From a virus, in IMG/VR virus record IMGVR_UViG_3300037191_001660, positions 1 to 24,400 of that record: 24,400 bases of DNA, one strand, 5' to 3'. How positions within the stretch are numbered: position 1 is the first letter of the stretch; each line of letters starts with the position of its first letter. The notes below the pieces were generated by a model that searched no databases, was not told where the DNA came from, and worked only from the letters and a program-made list of their open reading frames with translations. This document shows positions 7,107 to 16,814 of the stretch, in pieces. Both the position numbers and the translations under genes were made by a program.

Positions 7107-8906
7107 ATGTCAATAACAAAAAAACGCAACGACTTGTTGTGTCAGCCTACAATAGCCATCGACTTTGAAACCTTTTACAGTAAGGAATATTCCATACGTG
7201 ATACGGGGAACCAAGGATACGTGGCGCACAAAGAATTTGATGCGTATTTAGTTTCGTTAGTTGGTGAAGAAATTCAATATGTTGGGTCGCCGACCGAAGC
7301 ACCTTGGGAAAACATTTCAGACTCTCCACATTTTATTGCCCACAACGCTGGATTTGATTCCACCGTGTTTAAGGCATGTCAGAAACTAGGCACTATTCCA
7401 GATCGCATTCAACCTGTTTGGGATTGCACCGCAAACCTAGCCGTTTACATCCAAGCACCTCGCAGCCTTGCCGGGGTGAGTGAACAAATGTTTGGAGAGA
7501 AACCTGACAAAACAGTTAGGGATAAAATGAAGGGTCGTACATACGAGTCGTTAAACGATGAGGAAATAAAAGACCTACACCACTACGCACTCCAAGACTC
7601 AAAACTCTGCCTCAAAGTGTGGGACACCTACCACGAACATTGGCCCATCCAAGAAAAAACCATAGCTAGACACACAATGAATAGTGGGTTTAAGGGAGTT
7701 AGGGTTGATCAGACCCTGCTTACTGCTGGATTAGCAAAGCTTCGGGAGGAAAAGCAGAAGGCTCAGGTTAAAATTCCTTGGGCAGAGTCCGCTCCCCCCA
7801 CATCACCTTTGCAATTGAAAAAATATTGCACTGAGCAGGGCATAGCGGCTCCAAAAAGCACTGCTATGGGTAACGAGGACTGTGATAGGTGGGAAGTTGA
7901 ACATGCCGAAAAATACCCCATCGTTGCGGCGTTGCGGAACTGGCGAAGTTCCAACCGTTTAATCCGACTACTGGAAACCATCGAGTATCGGGTGTCTAAT
8001 AATTTAGTTGGTGAGGGAATTCTCCCATTCAATCTCAAATACTTTGGGGCAAGCCTCACGGGTCGTTGGAGTGGCGACACTAAGGTGAACATGCAGAACA
8101 TTCCAAGGGGCGAAGTGTTTGGAGTTGACGTTAGAAAAATGTTTATTCCTAGGCCGGGTAAAAAATTCATCATTGCTGACTTAGCTCAAATCGAACCTAG
8201 GTGTTTGGCTTGGTGGAGTGGAGACACCGACCTGTTGGAATTTGTGAAACAAGGCCGGGACATTTACGAGGCACACGCCTTAACTACTATGCTCCCTGTA
8301 GGAACTACTGTGGTTGACAAGCTCACCCGGCAACTGGCTAAGACAAGGGTGTTGGGGTTGGGCTATGGCTGTGGGGCTAAAAAGTTCAAACTGGTCGCCA
8401 AAAACATGGGCATTGAAATGTCTGAGGCGGAAGCCAAAAAAGTGGTGCGGGAATATCGGAAGTCTAACCGGAAAATAGTGGATTTCTGGAAGGCACGGGA
8501 AAAACTATTCCTTGCCGACATTGGACAGGACAACCGGGTTCAGCTACCTAGTGGTCGATGGATATCCTACTTCAACTGCAAATCCTCACGCACAGAGTCA
8601 GGTTTTCCACAGCACTTCGGCTCCATCACTCGCGGCGCACCTCCAAGAACCTTCTACGGAGGAAAACTATGTGAGAACTTAATCCAAGCCACAGCCAGAG
8701 ACGTATTTTCAGATGCATACTACCGAGTATTAGAAGCCGGATATGAAATTATCTGGACAGTCCACGATGAATTTATTGTTGAAGTAGACGAGGACGATGG
8801 AGAAGCAAGACAAGCTATTGAAAACCTAATGTCAATCACTCCTGATTGGCTACCGGGTTGTCCAATCGGTGCGGAAGCAATGGAAACAAACCACTACACA
8901 AAATAA
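7107..8906 (+). CDS. Family A DNA polymerase with 3'-5' exonuclease
   Basis: The product has 599 residues. A DEDD proofreading domain occupies about residues 15-190: motif I D19/E21 (AIDFETF), motif II HNAGFD with D84, and motif III Y160 to D164 (YALQD). The family A palm and fingers follow: motif A with D358 (IADLAQIEPR), motif B R408, K412 and Y420 (RQLAKTRVLGLGYG) and motif C H553, D554, E555 (VHDEFIVEV). All catalytic residues are present. The position matching E. coli Pol I Phe762 is Leu416. There is no 5'-nuclease domain. It replicates the phage genome, probably with the primase and helicase encoded downstream. The start has an A/T-rich leader without a Shine-Dalgarno. Confidence 0.96.
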   Translation: MSITKKRNDLLCQPTIAIDFETFYSKEYSIRDTGNQGYVAHKEFDAYLVSLVGEEIQYVGSPTEAPWENISDSPHFIAHNAGFDSTVFKACQKLGTIPDRIQPVWDCTANLAVYIQAPRSLAGVSEQMFGEKPDKTVRDKMKGRTYESLNDEEIKDLHHYALQDSKLCLKVWDTYHEHWPIQEKTIARHTMNSGFKGVRVDQTLLTAGLAKLREEKQKAQVKIPWAESAPPTSPLQLKKYCTEQGIAAPKSTAMGNEDCDRWEVEHAEKYPIVAALRNWRSSNRLIRLLETIEYRVSNNLVGEGILPFNLKYFGASLTGRWSGDTKVNMQNIPRGEVFGVDVRKMFIPRPGKKFIIADLAQIEPRCLAWWSGDTDLLEFVKQGRDIYEAHALTTMLPVGTTVVDKLTRQLAKTRVLGLGYGCGAKKFKLVAKNMGIEMSEAEAKKVVREYRKSNRKIVDFWKAREKLFLADIGQDNRVQLPSGRWISYFNCKSSRTESGFPQHFGSITRGAPPRTFYGGKLCENLIQATARDVFSDAYYRVLEAGYEIIWTVHDEFIVEVDEDDGEARQAIENLMSITPDWLPGCPIGAEAMETNHYTK

Positions 8907-9271: not shown

Positions 9272-10103
9272 TCCCTGCCCTGAATCAGGGGAAGGTGTGC
9301 ACAAATGGGTGTATCATGTTTGCTGTATTTTTCTAGATGCCGGAAACTCGGCTCAGGATGCGGAGGAATATTGCGTTGAACGTGCCTCCCGTGCCTTACA
9401 GATAAACGAAGTTCAAAACGCCTGTGCGTCAATCCAGAAAACTGGAATTGTCAAGCGTTATCGGTGGGAAAAACCACAAAAAGAATATGTTGACTTTGTG
9501 AAAAGAACCGCAGTTGGGGGCTTATATCAGAAACTGGTTAACCAGATAGTTCATCCCAGAGCACTGAAAGCAACCGGCTTTGACATATTAGAGCTTCTTT
9601 TTCCAGATGATATTGCAAGTGGAAACTGGTCTTTGCTGTGTTGCGGGGCAAGTCAAAGTGATTTTCGCACCGCCCCCCTATCTTTCTTCCAAGATTTGTG
9701 CGAAGACCTGCAATTCATTGTGCCTTCCCCAATGTCCAGTATTTGGGGAGTGGGGCAAAGTGGAAAACGAAGCCAACACACCTTAGACAACACCGGAAAC
9801 CGGAAATACCTAGTCGTGGAATTTGACACGGGCGCACACATCGACCATGCCGCCTTCCTCCACAACCTAAATCGCATTATCCCCATAACTATGGTTGTGC
9901 ATTCTGGAAACAAATCTTTACACGGTTGGTTTTACGTGGAAGGCATGTCTGAAGCCAAGCAAGCAAACTTCTTCATGGAGGCGACTAAGCTTGGGGCCGA
10001 CACAGCTACGTGGAACAAATCTCTGTTTGTTAGAATGCCCAAAGGAACACGTGCTGACGGCACACGCCAAGAAATCTTATACTTCACACCACCTAATGTT
10101 TAA
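9246..10103 (+). CDS. Stand-alone archaeo-eukaryotic-type primase (RepB/prim-pol-like)
   Basis: The product has 285 residues. The C-terminal half carries the marks of the archaeo-eukaryotic primase superfamily: an acidic strand 'VVEFDTG' with E192 and D194, then 'VVHSGNKSLHGWFYV' with H219 and H226 as the S-x-H-like motif, then a strand ending 'FVRMPKGTR...QEILYF'. The N-terminal 100 residues look helical and may recruit a partner. Its role would be synthesis of primers for the family A polymerase. Its stop overlaps the start of the SF3-like helicase by 8 nt, giving a two-gene version of the primase-helicase that many phages and plasmids encode as one chain. A third acidic residue of the active site could not be placed with certainty. 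Confidence 0.75.
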   Translation: MNNLNLPISPCPESGEGVHKWVYHVCCIFLDAGNSAQDAEEYCVERASRALQINEVQNACASIQKTGIVKRYRWEKPQKEYVDFVKRTAVGGLYQKLVNQIVHPRALKATGFDILELLFPDDIASGNWSLLCCGASQSDFRTAPLSFFQDLCEDLQFIVPSPMSSIWGVGQSGKRSQHTLDNTGNRKYLVVEFDTGAHIDHAAFLHNLNRIIPITMVVHSGNKSLHGWFYVEGMSEAKQANFFMEATKLGADTATWNKSLFVRMPKGTRADGTRQEILYFTPPNV

Positions 10104-11382
10104 AAAAATAACCCTCCAACACCAACTACAACTCCCCATATGGTTTTATCCTCCATCAGAAAAATACTATGTGCAGGATGAAAACATGGAGTACGTGCCG
10201 TACACTAAAACAACCCTAAAGCTAATCCTAAAATCATGGGGTTTACGAGGCCGGGCACACGATGACGAACTTCTCTCACCAATTGACGCGTTAATAGCCG
10301 ACGTGTCTTATGGGAAAGTGGTAGCTTATGCTGGAAGGCTCGCTGGAATTAAAACCGGGTGCTACTCCATGAATGGTAAGCGTGTTTTAGTAACAGCCGA
10401 TCCAATAATCATTCCTTCCAAAGAGGGGAAGTTTCCCATGATTGAGTCCATATTGGCCCAACTATTTAATGGCGGGGAAATAGACCAACGTCCTTACGTC
10501 TATGGATGGCTCAAGCTGGGGCGTAAGGCTGTGCTAGAGGCGTTTCCAATGCCGGGGCAAGCCCTAGTGCTAGCTGGGCCTAGAAATGCCGGAAAAAACC
10601 TATTCCAAGACATGATAACGGAGCTTCTTGGCGGTCGTGCCGAAAAACCCTACCGCTACATGGTCGGCAAGAGCGAATTCAATGGTGATTTGTTTGGCGC
10701 AGAACACCTTTGCATTGCTGATGAAGTGCCGTTTTATGACATGCCGTCTAGGCGAGTGTTTGGTTCCAAGATTAAAGACATGTGTGTTAATGCGCTACAA
10801 AGTTGTCATGGGAAGCATAAGGAAGCACTAGCCTTATACCCGTTGTGGCGATTATCCATAAGTGTTAATGATGAGGCTGAGAATCTAATCATGCTTCCCC
10901 CCCTCGAAGATTCTATTGAGGACAAAATCATGCTTCTGAAGGTTCATCAGGCAATTATGCCCATGAAATCCGATACTCCACGATGCCGAGTGGAGTTTTG
11001 GGAGCGTGTACGTGCCGAAATGCCGGGGTTTGCACATTTTATTGAGAACTTCCAGATACCGGACGAACTTCAAGAGTCTAGGTTTGGCATCAAAGCCTTC
11101 CAGCATCCAGAACTCGTAGAAATCCTGAAAGAAATGACTCACGAAAACAGACTCATGGCACTCATGGAAATTATCGTGATTCCAGAAAATGGGTCGTGGA
11201 AAGGTACTTTGGAAGAGCTTGAAACCACCCTTTTAGAAGACTCCACCTACAAAAGACAATTGGAAAAATTATTATACTACCCAACTGCCTTGATGACTTA
11301 CCTTAGACGGCTCCAAAAGGCTATGCCAGAGAGAGTTACCTCGTTCAAATCCAACAGTAAGAGGGGTTGGGAGCTAAAATAA
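10096..11382 (+). CDS. SF3/D5-like replicative helicase (DUF5906/VapE-type ATPase)
   Basis: The product has 428 residues. I chose the ATG at 10096, which overlaps the primase stop; the frame is open further upstream to 9895, but that stretch lies within the primase gene and has no family-like sequence. Walker A is GPRNAGKN with K167 near 'ALVLAG'. Walker B is the acidic strand 'HLCIADEVP', and the sensor Asn is in 'LSISVNDEAENLIMLPP' followed by 'DKIMLL', a typical SF3 superfamily order. The N-terminal 150 residues resemble the linker that joins the primase part in fused relatives. It unwinds DNA at the fork, probably as a ring. It is the last gene before the candidate origin region. Confidence 0.85.
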   Translation: MFKKITLQHQLQLPIWFYPPSEKYYVQDENMEYVPYTKTTLKLILKSWGLRGRAHDDELLSPIDALIADVSYGKVVAYAGRLAGIKTGCYSMNGKRVLVTADPIIIPSKEGKFPMIESILAQLFNGGEIDQRPYVYGWLKLGRKAVLEAFPMPGQALVLAGPRNAGKNLFQDMITELLGGRAEKPYRYMVGKSEFNGDLFGAEHLCIADEVPFYDMPSRRVFGSKIKDMCVNALQSCHGKHKEALALYPLWRLSISVNDEAENLIMLPPLEDSIEDKIMLLKVHQAIMPMKSDTPRCRVEFWERVRAEMPGFAHFIENFQIPDELQESRFGIKAFQHPELVEILKEMTHENRLMALMEIIVIPENGSWKGTLEELETTLLEDSTYKRQLEKLLYYPTALMTYLRRLQKAMPERVTSFKSNSKRGWELK

Positions 11383-11473
11383 AGGGCGGCAAGGGCGGCA
11401 ATTATTAACTTATTCCACAGAAAAGAAAGTAATAATAGGTAAGGTTCCTGATAATTGCCGCCCTTGCCGCCCT
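11383..11473. repeat. 23-bp perfect inverted repeat, 45-nt loop
   Basis: The left arm at 11383-11405 starts with the base after the helicase stop codon; its exact reverse complement is at 11451-11473. The right side carries one further TTGCCGCCC copy, to 11481. The A/T-rich loop contains TTATTCCACA. In RNA the arms would form a very stable hairpin, but no T-run follows, so an ordinary terminator is less likely. Confidence 0.95.
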
Positions 11474-11481
11474 TGCCGCCC
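11455..11481. repeat. Three head-to-tail TTGCCGCCC iterons
   Basis: TTGCCGCCC is repeated at 11455-11463, 11464-11472 and 11473-11481. Two inverted copies (GGGCGGCAA) are at 11384-11392 and 11393-11401. The 9-bp spacing, slightly less than one helical turn, is iteron-like. Confidence 0.9.
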
Positions 11482-11542
11482 TGCTGATATCACCCACATC
11501 TGGAATATTAGTGGGCAGTCTGTGGAAAAATAAAAACGAAAA

Positions 11543-11776
11543 ATGAAACACGAAAGAGACAAAAAACGGTGCATGTTATCCTGTAGGGTGACACAAGATG
11601 CAAAAGACCAGTTAGTGAGGTTTTCCTCCCTGCGAGATAGTTCGATGAGTGCTGCTGTGGATACTTCTTTGAAGATACTCATACGTTTTACTCCCACCGA
11701 GCTACTTCGTATGGCTCACCGGGTGGATGTTGGTGATATGCGGGACAAGTTAACTGAACTGGAGGGTAGTATATGA
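11543..11776 (+). CDS. Ribbon-helix-helix-like small protein next to the candidate origin
   Basis: The product has 77 residues. After a basic N-terminus (KHERDKKR) comes the strand 'CMLSCRVTQDAKDQL' and then helices 'VRFSSLRDSSMSAAVDTSLKILI', the typical arrangement of MetJ/Arc or MobC-like DNA-binding proteins. It lies directly after the interlaced inverted repeats, with an A-rich leader and no Shine-Dalgarno, and its stop overlaps the DnaA-IV-like gene by ATGA. It probably binds the repeats next door, as iteron-binding or autorepressor proteins do (inference). The gene call is firm, the fold probable. Confidence 0.7.
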   Translation: MKHERDKKRCMLSCRVTQDAKDQLVRFSSLRDSSMSAAVDTSLKILIRFTPTELLRMAHRVDVGDMRDKLTELEGSI

Positions 11777-12117
11777 GTAAACTGGAGATATTAGCTACCG
11801 CAGCCGCCGAGTTTTATGGAGTGGCAATTGAAGACCTGCGGAGTCCGTGCCGGAAAGCTATTTTCACTAAGCCCCGCCACACATGCCAATGGATTGCCGA
11901 TAATGCGGGGATCAAGCGTGGGGTTATCGCTAGATTCTGGAAGGTAGACCATGCTTCCGTGTTCTATGGGTGTAAGATTGTAGCGGCTAGGATTAAGGGC
12001 AGTGGTTGGGAGAGACATGAGCTTGGTTTGTTTTCCAAGATAGTCGCTAAACTGATGGAAGAGGACAGGTTGCGGCGGCAGACTGTTGAAGGTAGGTTTT
12101 TGGCGATAGAAAAATAA
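11773..12117 (+). CDS. Stand-alone DnaA domain IV-like DNA-binding protein
   Basis: The product has 114 residues, with GGAGGG ahead of the ATG. Residues 5-75 follow the C-terminal DNA-binding domain of DnaA. The opening helix pattern is 'AAAEFYGVAIEDLRSPCRKA', then 'PRHTCQWIADNAGIKRGVIARFW', and the signature loop appears as 'KVDHASVFYGCKIV' in place of DnaA's 'GRDHTTVLHA'. There is no AAA+ domain, so it can bind DNA but not drive origin melting. Stand-alone proteins with this domain are known in phages. Here it sits 250 nt from DnaA-box-like sequence, which suggests either a phage initiator or specificity factor, or a competitor of host DnaA (inference). Confidence 0.82.
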   Translation: MSKLEILATAAAEFYGVAIEDLRSPCRKAIFTKPRHTCQWIADNAGIKRGVIARFWKVDHASVFYGCKIVAARIKGSGWERHELGLFSKIVAKLMEEDRLRRQTVEGRFLAIEK

Positions 12118-16388: not shown

Positions 16389-16814
16389 ATGGCGGCAAAA
16401 GAGCGGCGCGGCGGACACAACAAAACACCAAGGATTAAGGTTGACGCTGTGATCCGTGGGTTGAAACAGGGCAAAGGCATTAACCAGCTTGCCGTTGATC
16501 TGGACATCGGGCGGACAACAGTCGGCCTCATCAGGGAACAGAATCGCGACGTTGTGCCAAACTGGCGGCGTAAAACGGCACAGTCTATGATGGAGCTTTC
16601 TTCTAAACTAGTGGCGCACCTTACCGACACTTACCAAGACTTGCCGCCCCATTCTAAACCCATTTTGTTGGGCATTTTATCTGACAAAATACGAGACCTA
16701 ACTTCTGAAGGCGGGCAGGTTGTGCAACACCAACACGTGCACATCGACCACGGCGACATAAACGCGATGATCTCAGGCACGAAAGGCACGAAACAAATGC
16801 CACCGCGCGAGTGA
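16389..16814 (+). CDS. HTH DNA-binding protein, candidate small terminase subunit
   Basis: The product has 141 residues. I chose the ATG at 16389, since the open frame upstream covers the divergent promoter region. After a basic start, residues 31-51 (INQLAVDLDIGRTTVGLIREQ) are a clear helix-turn-helix. A helical segment containing 'PILLGILSDKIRDLTSEG' (residues 91-108) resembles phage small terminase and related HTH proteins, and a His-rich strand with H114, H116, H118 and H121 follows. Its place a few hundred bases before the large terminase fits a small subunit that selects the packaging site. A transcription regulator is the main alternative. AGGCACGAA is repeated in tandem near its 3' end (16775-16792). 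Confidence 0.62.
   Translation: MAAKERRGGHNKTPRIKVDAVIRGLKQGKGINQLAVDLDIGRTTVGLIREQNRDVVPNWRRKTAQSMMELSSKLVAHLTDTYQDLPPHSKPILLGILSDKIRDLTSEGGQVVQHQHVHIDHGDINAMISGTKGTKQMPPRE

Follow-up and report, generated by a model that had tools for sequence, protein, structure and literature searches.

A perfect inverted repeat made up of short repeated units lies directly behind a putative helicase gene in the phage DNA analysed in this work, and the question that it raises is whether it represents an origin of replication, a structured RNA, or a symmetrical element of another kind. The window (i.e., the whole stretch of 24,400 nucleotides) is a phage fragment, as indicated by matches to portal, terminase, and major head proteins. 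A preliminary description had proposed that two interlaced inverted repeats at this locus, provided with iterons and DnaA-box-like sites, might act as an origin. On the basis of the sequence comparisons reported below, we propose, with a probability of about 0.8, that the element is a stem-loop origin of phage replication of the pRN1 type, the arms of which would be iterons of the initiator.

Results

Genes surrounding the element

The genes preceding and following the element are listed below.

7107-8906: family-A DNA polymerase, from profile matches; upstream of the stem-loop
9246-10103, plus strand: putative AEP-type primase, 285 aa; conserved AEP-like motifs YLVVEFD and SGNKSLHGWF
10096-11382, plus strand: putative SF3/D5-like helicase, 428 aa from its ATG; Walker A GPRNAGKN, Walker B CIADEVP, motif SVNDE
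11543-11776, plus strand: ORF of 77 aa; no family match
11773-12117, plus strand: stand-alone DnaA domain IV homologue, 114 aa, without an AAA+ domain; Bac_DnaA_C

The assignments of the AEP primase and of the SF3/D5-like helicase are weak but consistent, and the names given to the two proteins rest on the whole family, since the matches of the window's own sequences fall below the curated cut-offs. Pfam AEP-TOTE gave weak matches to the primase in 4 of 12 relatives (best E 3.4e-4), and DUF5906 matched the helicase in 11 of 12 (best E 4.1e-7), while five relatives showed a weak match to the papillomavirus-E1 helicase profile (PPV_E1_C); the PHROG label of the 428-aa helicase protein is "primase". 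The C-terminal region of the helicase appears to resemble a winged helix. The AlphaFold models, built on four-row alignments, were poor (mean pLDDT 37 for the helicase and 53 for the primase). Between 13150 and 16028 the longer ORFs (including those of 268 and 280 aa) lie on the minus strand, breaking the otherwise plus-strand gene order. The cumulative GC skew, suggested beforehand as a check, rises throughout the window with no turning point at the stem-loop; it was uninformative and gave no clear origin signal.

Anatomy of the stem-loop

The inverted-repeat search delimited the following parts.

11382-11405, plus strand: 5' arm of the stem, beginning on the helicase stop codon
11406-11450, no strand: spacer (loop) of 45 nt, 69% A+T versus 53%
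11451-11474, plus strand: 3' arm, the exact complement of the 5' arm
11384-11392 and 11393-11401, minus strand: two inverted 9-bp units TTGCCGCCC, exact matches
11455-11463, 11464-11472, and 11473-11481, plus strand: three direct 9-bp units TTGCCGCCC, exact matches

The repeat is perfect over 24 bp, one more than the 23 previously attributed to it, and its 5' arm reads AAGGGCGGCAAGGGCGGCAATTAT. It is the sole inverted repeat of its rank in the 24.4-kb record, with a score of 24 versus 13 for the next unrelated one. The fold of the stem-loop as single-stranded DNA has a z of -7.6, none of 200 shuffles being as good, and as RNA it is also very stable (z = -8.1). The long arms are indeed built of iterons, three direct and two inverted, as had been noticed from the letters, and the units follow a specific 9-bp period; the spacer is presumably the melting region. 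One extra exact copy of TTGCCGCCC falls within a plus-strand ORF (16641-16649) and is probably due to chance. Predictions returned neither a terminator nor a promoter at the stem-loop, and no known RNA family of Rfam matched it in the window or in the three closest relatives (L004-L006); a match to mir-2513 in L005, on both strands and with 29 bits against a cut-off of 89, is a generic hairpin match.

The stem-loop in related phages

The helicase search retrieved the three close relatives (L004, L005, and L006, sharing with the window 81%, 79%, and 68% helicase identity, respectively), while the polymerase and wider helicase searches retrieved more; helicase identity to the window among the relatives ranges from 50 to 81%. 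Neither named phages nor the genome contigs searched contained close relatives of the helicase or of the DnaA-like protein. An inverted repeat of different sequence occurs 3' of the helicase gene in every testable relative harboring the primase-helicase pair; in the window and its relatives alike, the replication gene is directly followed by a large stem-loop, conserved in form but not in sequence. In L004, L005, and L006 the helicase gene is followed at once by an inverted repeat (TGGACGGCAAGGACGCCAA, CGGGTGCTACCAATGATACCA, and ATAGTGTCGTCAAGTGCTTCAATT, respectively) that outranks all others in the entire record; the same is true of L019-L022, L024, L025, L028, L041, L105, and L110, and in L027 the repeat is displaced by about 96 nt. 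This repeat is top-ranked in almost every locus, mostly at 25 nt or less from the stop codon. The A+T content of the loop is 65-69% in the window and in L004-L006 versus 53-55% locus-wide, and the other loops are visibly AT-rich. Most of the phages of the set with a fused primase-helicase show no clear stem at that site; among annotated or named P4-family replicons nothing similar was found in 5 of 11, and one more has direct 9-bp repeats only.

Some further features were observed around these sites. CTGGA pentamers are repeated after the 3' arm, within about 150 nt, in L019, L020, L105, and L110. In Streptococcus phage Javan465 (L116, 2677-2850) a similar stem-loop lies 3' of the primase gene, its unit being of 8 bp (AGTTACCA AGTTACCG) and its AT-rich loop of 55 nt, and in a Vagococcus plasmid (L123, 2588-2608) direct 9-bp repeats (GGGATAGTA GGGATAGTT) lie 3' of a P4-family primase gene, adjoining a very AT-rich stretch and with a clear stem being absent. 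Past the stem-loop of L004 (6750-6918), L005 (6418-6530 and 6548-6722), and L041 (10308-10398), though not in the window, there is a structured-RNA-like element with the layout TTTTGGYAGGATA...hairpin...YTRCCWTCCCCGG...CGGGGAGAATT; two-sided changes affect 6 of its 20 predicted pairs in four sequences, and no Rfam match above threshold was obtained for L004 and L005.

The 9-bp period

Within the arms of 11 phage loci, identity at lag 9 is 0.69 versus 0.2-0.3 at other lags; in the arms of five pRN-type plasmids it is 0.52 versus at most 0.29, the period being evident in pRN1, pRN2, and pHEN7, only weakly so in pDL10, and not seen in pSSVx. An independent scan covered the 500 nt that follow the helicase stop, looking for two units in tandem accompanied by an inverted copy; the remainder of each locus supplied the expectation. 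Period 9 was found at 16 loci versus 0.21 expected; the figures for period 8 are 3 versus 0.9 and for period 7 are 11 versus 6.4, and periods 10, 11, and 12 gave 1, 0, and 0 loci. The 16 loci include near-duplicates (L020/L021, L024/L025, and L062/L063), and L073, L081, and perhaps L029 look different; the contrast in favor of period 9 remains at the roughly ten cases that are independent. Short repeats in units of 9 bp thus form an array behind the gene of the putative initiator helicase. In 11 of the 11 elements compared, CA closes the inner unit beside the loop, in a register picked to show CA, which makes it a description and not a test.

The short arms and the DnaA domain IV homologue

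The order of the two pairs of arms, A1-B1-A2-B2, was correctly described and both pairs are present. The short arms B (TTCCACAGA at 11413-11421 and TCTGTGGAA at 11519-11527) reach 12 nt with one mismatch if extended, and 29 of 4000 shuffles produced a pairing of 9 bp or longer between the loop and the 3' flank. Each of them overlaps a DnaA-box-like site, as had been suspected.

11411-11419, plus strand: DnaA-box-like site TATTCCACA, situated in the loop and differing from TTWTNCACA at one position; overlaps arm B1
11521-11529, minus strand: DnaA-box-like site TTTTCCACA, exact TTWTNCACA; overlaps arm B2

For the exact box, which lies 3' of the window stem, P is about 0.04. In L006 the loop, of 80 nt, contains three exact TTWTNCACA boxes 20 bp apart, out of seven record-wide (P about 5e-7).

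The two downstream genes had been thought to encode small DNA-binding proteins. This fits the 114-aa product, a homologue of DnaA domain IV that bears out the hint to DnaA; the 77-aa product gave no match in family profile searches. The 114-aa protein matched Bac_DnaA_C with an E of 3.3e-7 and 30.7 bits (the genome search gave 31.5 bits, which is at the cut-off) and belongs to this family also by its signature helix of the DHTTV type, which reads DHASV; its counterpart in L006 matches the solved DnaA domain IV (1.4e-7). In the 16 records searched, the others of which are mostly fragments, the DnaA_C gene was found in the window and in L006 only. Since the box matches overlap B1 and B2, the window and L006 both carry the DnaA_C gene, and the loop of L006 contains boxes, the B arms are best read as two inverted DnaA-box-like sites.

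Discussion

Comparison with known origins

The closest known counterpart of the element is the stem-loop of the Sulfolobus plasmid pRN1, with a 21-bp stem and a 58-nt loop directly behind the AEP/SF3 gene, which is required for replication (PMC4234260, PMC3869888). The isolated 100-bp element restores replication when relocated, its loop is not deletable, and one stem mutation was tolerated only once the symmetry was restored (PMC4234260, PMC3869888). The phage shares with the pRN1 family (pRN1, pRN2, pHEN7) the position directly 3' of the AEP-primase/SF3-helicase gene(s), putative in the phage, a form conserved without its sequence, the 9-bp period of the arms, and the inner unit ending in CA beside the loop; the sizes are also comparable (stem of 24 versus 21 bp, loop of 45 versus 58 nt, both AT-rich). 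The 9-bp period is not reported for pRN1 in PMC4234260 or PMC3869888, and the authors of the former described the plasmid as being without the iteron structure typical of many plasmids. Unlike pRN1, the phage has its own family-A polymerase, its primase and helicase genes are separate, and it carries a gene for a DnaA-domain-IV protein; its element has, in addition, DnaA-box-like sites and a third unit on the 3' side. A pRN1-like stem-loop has also been proposed for phage BIP-1, near-identical to BPP-1 (PMC4234260); our examination of BPP-1 revealed only a 9-bp perfect stem.

The origins of SaPI and SCCmec resemble the phage element in position, D5-like helicase, and iterons. In SCCmec, the helicase Cch2 uses its C-terminal domain to bind iterons (AAGTG) that lie just downstream of the gene encoding it, and the SaPI iteron origin likewise lies just behind its helicase gene (PMC7581432). 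The binding of iterons by the C-terminal domain is a feature of Cch2 that can only be predicted, by analogy, for the phage; the AAGTG core is also present in L006, L019, L024, and L041. SaPI and SCCmec differ in not being phage genomes, and Cch2 does not need the inverted repeats of SCCmec in order to bind in vitro (PMC7581432). Finally, plasmids of Pediococcus damnosus and Lentilactobacillus buchneri, with split genes for a "bifunctional primase/polymerase" and a P4-family helicase, have, in a layout like that of the phage, a 17-bp stem of 9-bp-spaced units around an AT-rich loop of about 80 nt, 3' of the helicase; the units differ from those of the phage (TGTTCCATA AGTTCCAA; TATCCATAA TATCCAAC), and no origin is annotated there.

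Alternative explanations

The interpretation put forward in the preliminary description stands in part. Its origin reading is supported, in that the hairpin directly follows the putative genes for an AEP primase and an SF3-like helicase, is found again in all testable relatives with that pair, resembles the pRN1 stem-loop, and is made of iterons, while the pseudoknot associated with it is not upheld. It is possible, though improbable, that the stem-loop acts as RNA, by terminating, processing, or protecting the 3' end of the helicase transcript or by regulating the next genes. The genes on both sides of the hairpin are co-directional, its fold as RNA is very stable, and pairing rather than sequence is conserved, all of which would suit such a role. 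However, an intrinsic terminator is not detected, no T-run follows the stem, and a 9-bp period with head-to-head iteron arrays would have no reason in an RNA stem; moreover, the same layout occurs in pRN1, where the origin works when relocated and a separate terminator hairpin is dispensable (PMC4234260). The preference for one strand that might be read from G-T wobbles in imperfect stems offered too few cases to use.

We consider it similarly unlikely that the arms are only inverted protein-binding arrays, such as an operator or partition site for a repressor like the 77-aa protein, and that the hairpin never forms. The arrays themselves are evident, the arms of L019, L020, and L110 repeat better than they pair and may be only inverted iteron arrays rather than a true stem, and Cch2 of SCCmec binds direct repeats, with the inverted repeats dispensable for binding (PMC7581432). 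However, in L005 the arrays are not followed directly by any comparable ORF, the constant neighbor is the upstream helicase, and in the window group the symmetry between the arms exceeds the similarity of the units. Indeed, where units differ within an arm, pairing across the arms is still kept in 47 of 50 cases (window, L004, L005, and L006) and in 20 of 20 (pRN1 and pRN2), counts that are biased upward by the choice of the arms as complementary stretches; pairing is looser in L019, L020, L105, and L110. Because of this bias, stem length (19-28 bp in the window group) provides the sounder argument, and we conclude that pairing matters in this group.

The folding of the A and B pairs into one structure, as a pseudoknot or interlaced cruciform, appears very unlikely. 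Both pairs do exist in the interlaced order and a B pair arises in less than 1% of shuffles; nevertheless, the inverted repeats of L004-L006 include no conspicuous pair comparable to B, the B arms can be explained as DnaA-box-like sites, and the minimum-energy RNA fold, from a program that cannot predict pseudoknots, leaves them unpaired with each other. The comparison of the arms in relatives, suggested beforehand, had a divided outcome, the long repeat recurring with changed letters and the B arms not being conserved. Lastly, a mobile or chance palindrome (a MITE-like insertion or a recent duplication) would account for sequences wholly different between close relatives, but it is hardly credible, as all testable relatives with the gene pair have the element in this position and with this architecture, and as no copies occur elsewhere in the window.

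A possible mechanism and the relationship among these origins

Taking the stem-loop as an origin, and starting from its observed anatomy and position, its form conserved without the sequence, its 9-bp period, and the families of its neighboring genes, we infer a mechanism that would involve binding, melting, priming, and a DnaA step. Immediately after the primase-helicase genes, the AT-rich spacer of 45 bp is flanked by two head-to-head arrays of 9-bp iterons. By analogy with the systems discussed above, the C-terminal domain of the SF3-like helicase might read the iterons, one subunit per 9-bp unit, and the helicase might load as two opposed rings, one per arm. Melting or cruciform extrusion would then expose the AT-rich loop, where, judging from their protein families, the AEP protein would prime and the phage family-A polymerase would extend. 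The DnaA-domain-IV protein could act as an accessory factor or a regulator by binding the DnaA-box-like sites in and beside the loop, and it is a candidate accessory in two phages (the window and L006). The DNA-binding domain and the TTWTNCACA-type sites are common to oriC and the phage; unlike DnaA at oriC, the phage protein is without the AAA+ domain, and, if used at all, it would be an accessory at a different kind of origin.

The shared 9-bp period suggests that the pRN1 stem-loop and the SaPI/SCCmec iteron origins of AEP/SF3-type replicons are one kind of element, distributed across archaeal plasmids, bacterial plasmids, and phages and consisting of two inverted 9-bp iteron arrays with a conserved CA end beside an AT-rich loop. 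The letters would drift fast between close relatives while symmetry and period are kept, and some phages would have captured a DnaA domain IV and added it, along with DnaA boxes, to the element. We regard the chances of this wider idea as even. The rapid drift of the letters, with symmetry and period maintained, in turn suggests a fast co-evolution with the initiator.

Conclusions

For lack of sequence conservation, the origins of phages and plasmids that depend on a primase-helicase initiator are seldom recognised. Inverted 9-bp arrays that enclose an AT-rich loop and closely follow the helicase gene would offer a signature with which they might be found computationally, and would explain why the pRN1 stem needs its symmetry and yet tolerates changes of sequence. 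A DnaA domain IV outside DnaA, together with matching boxes in the loop, would represent an uncommon borrowing of the DNA-reading part of the host initiator. With such a signature, the co-evolution of initiators and iterons becomes testable.
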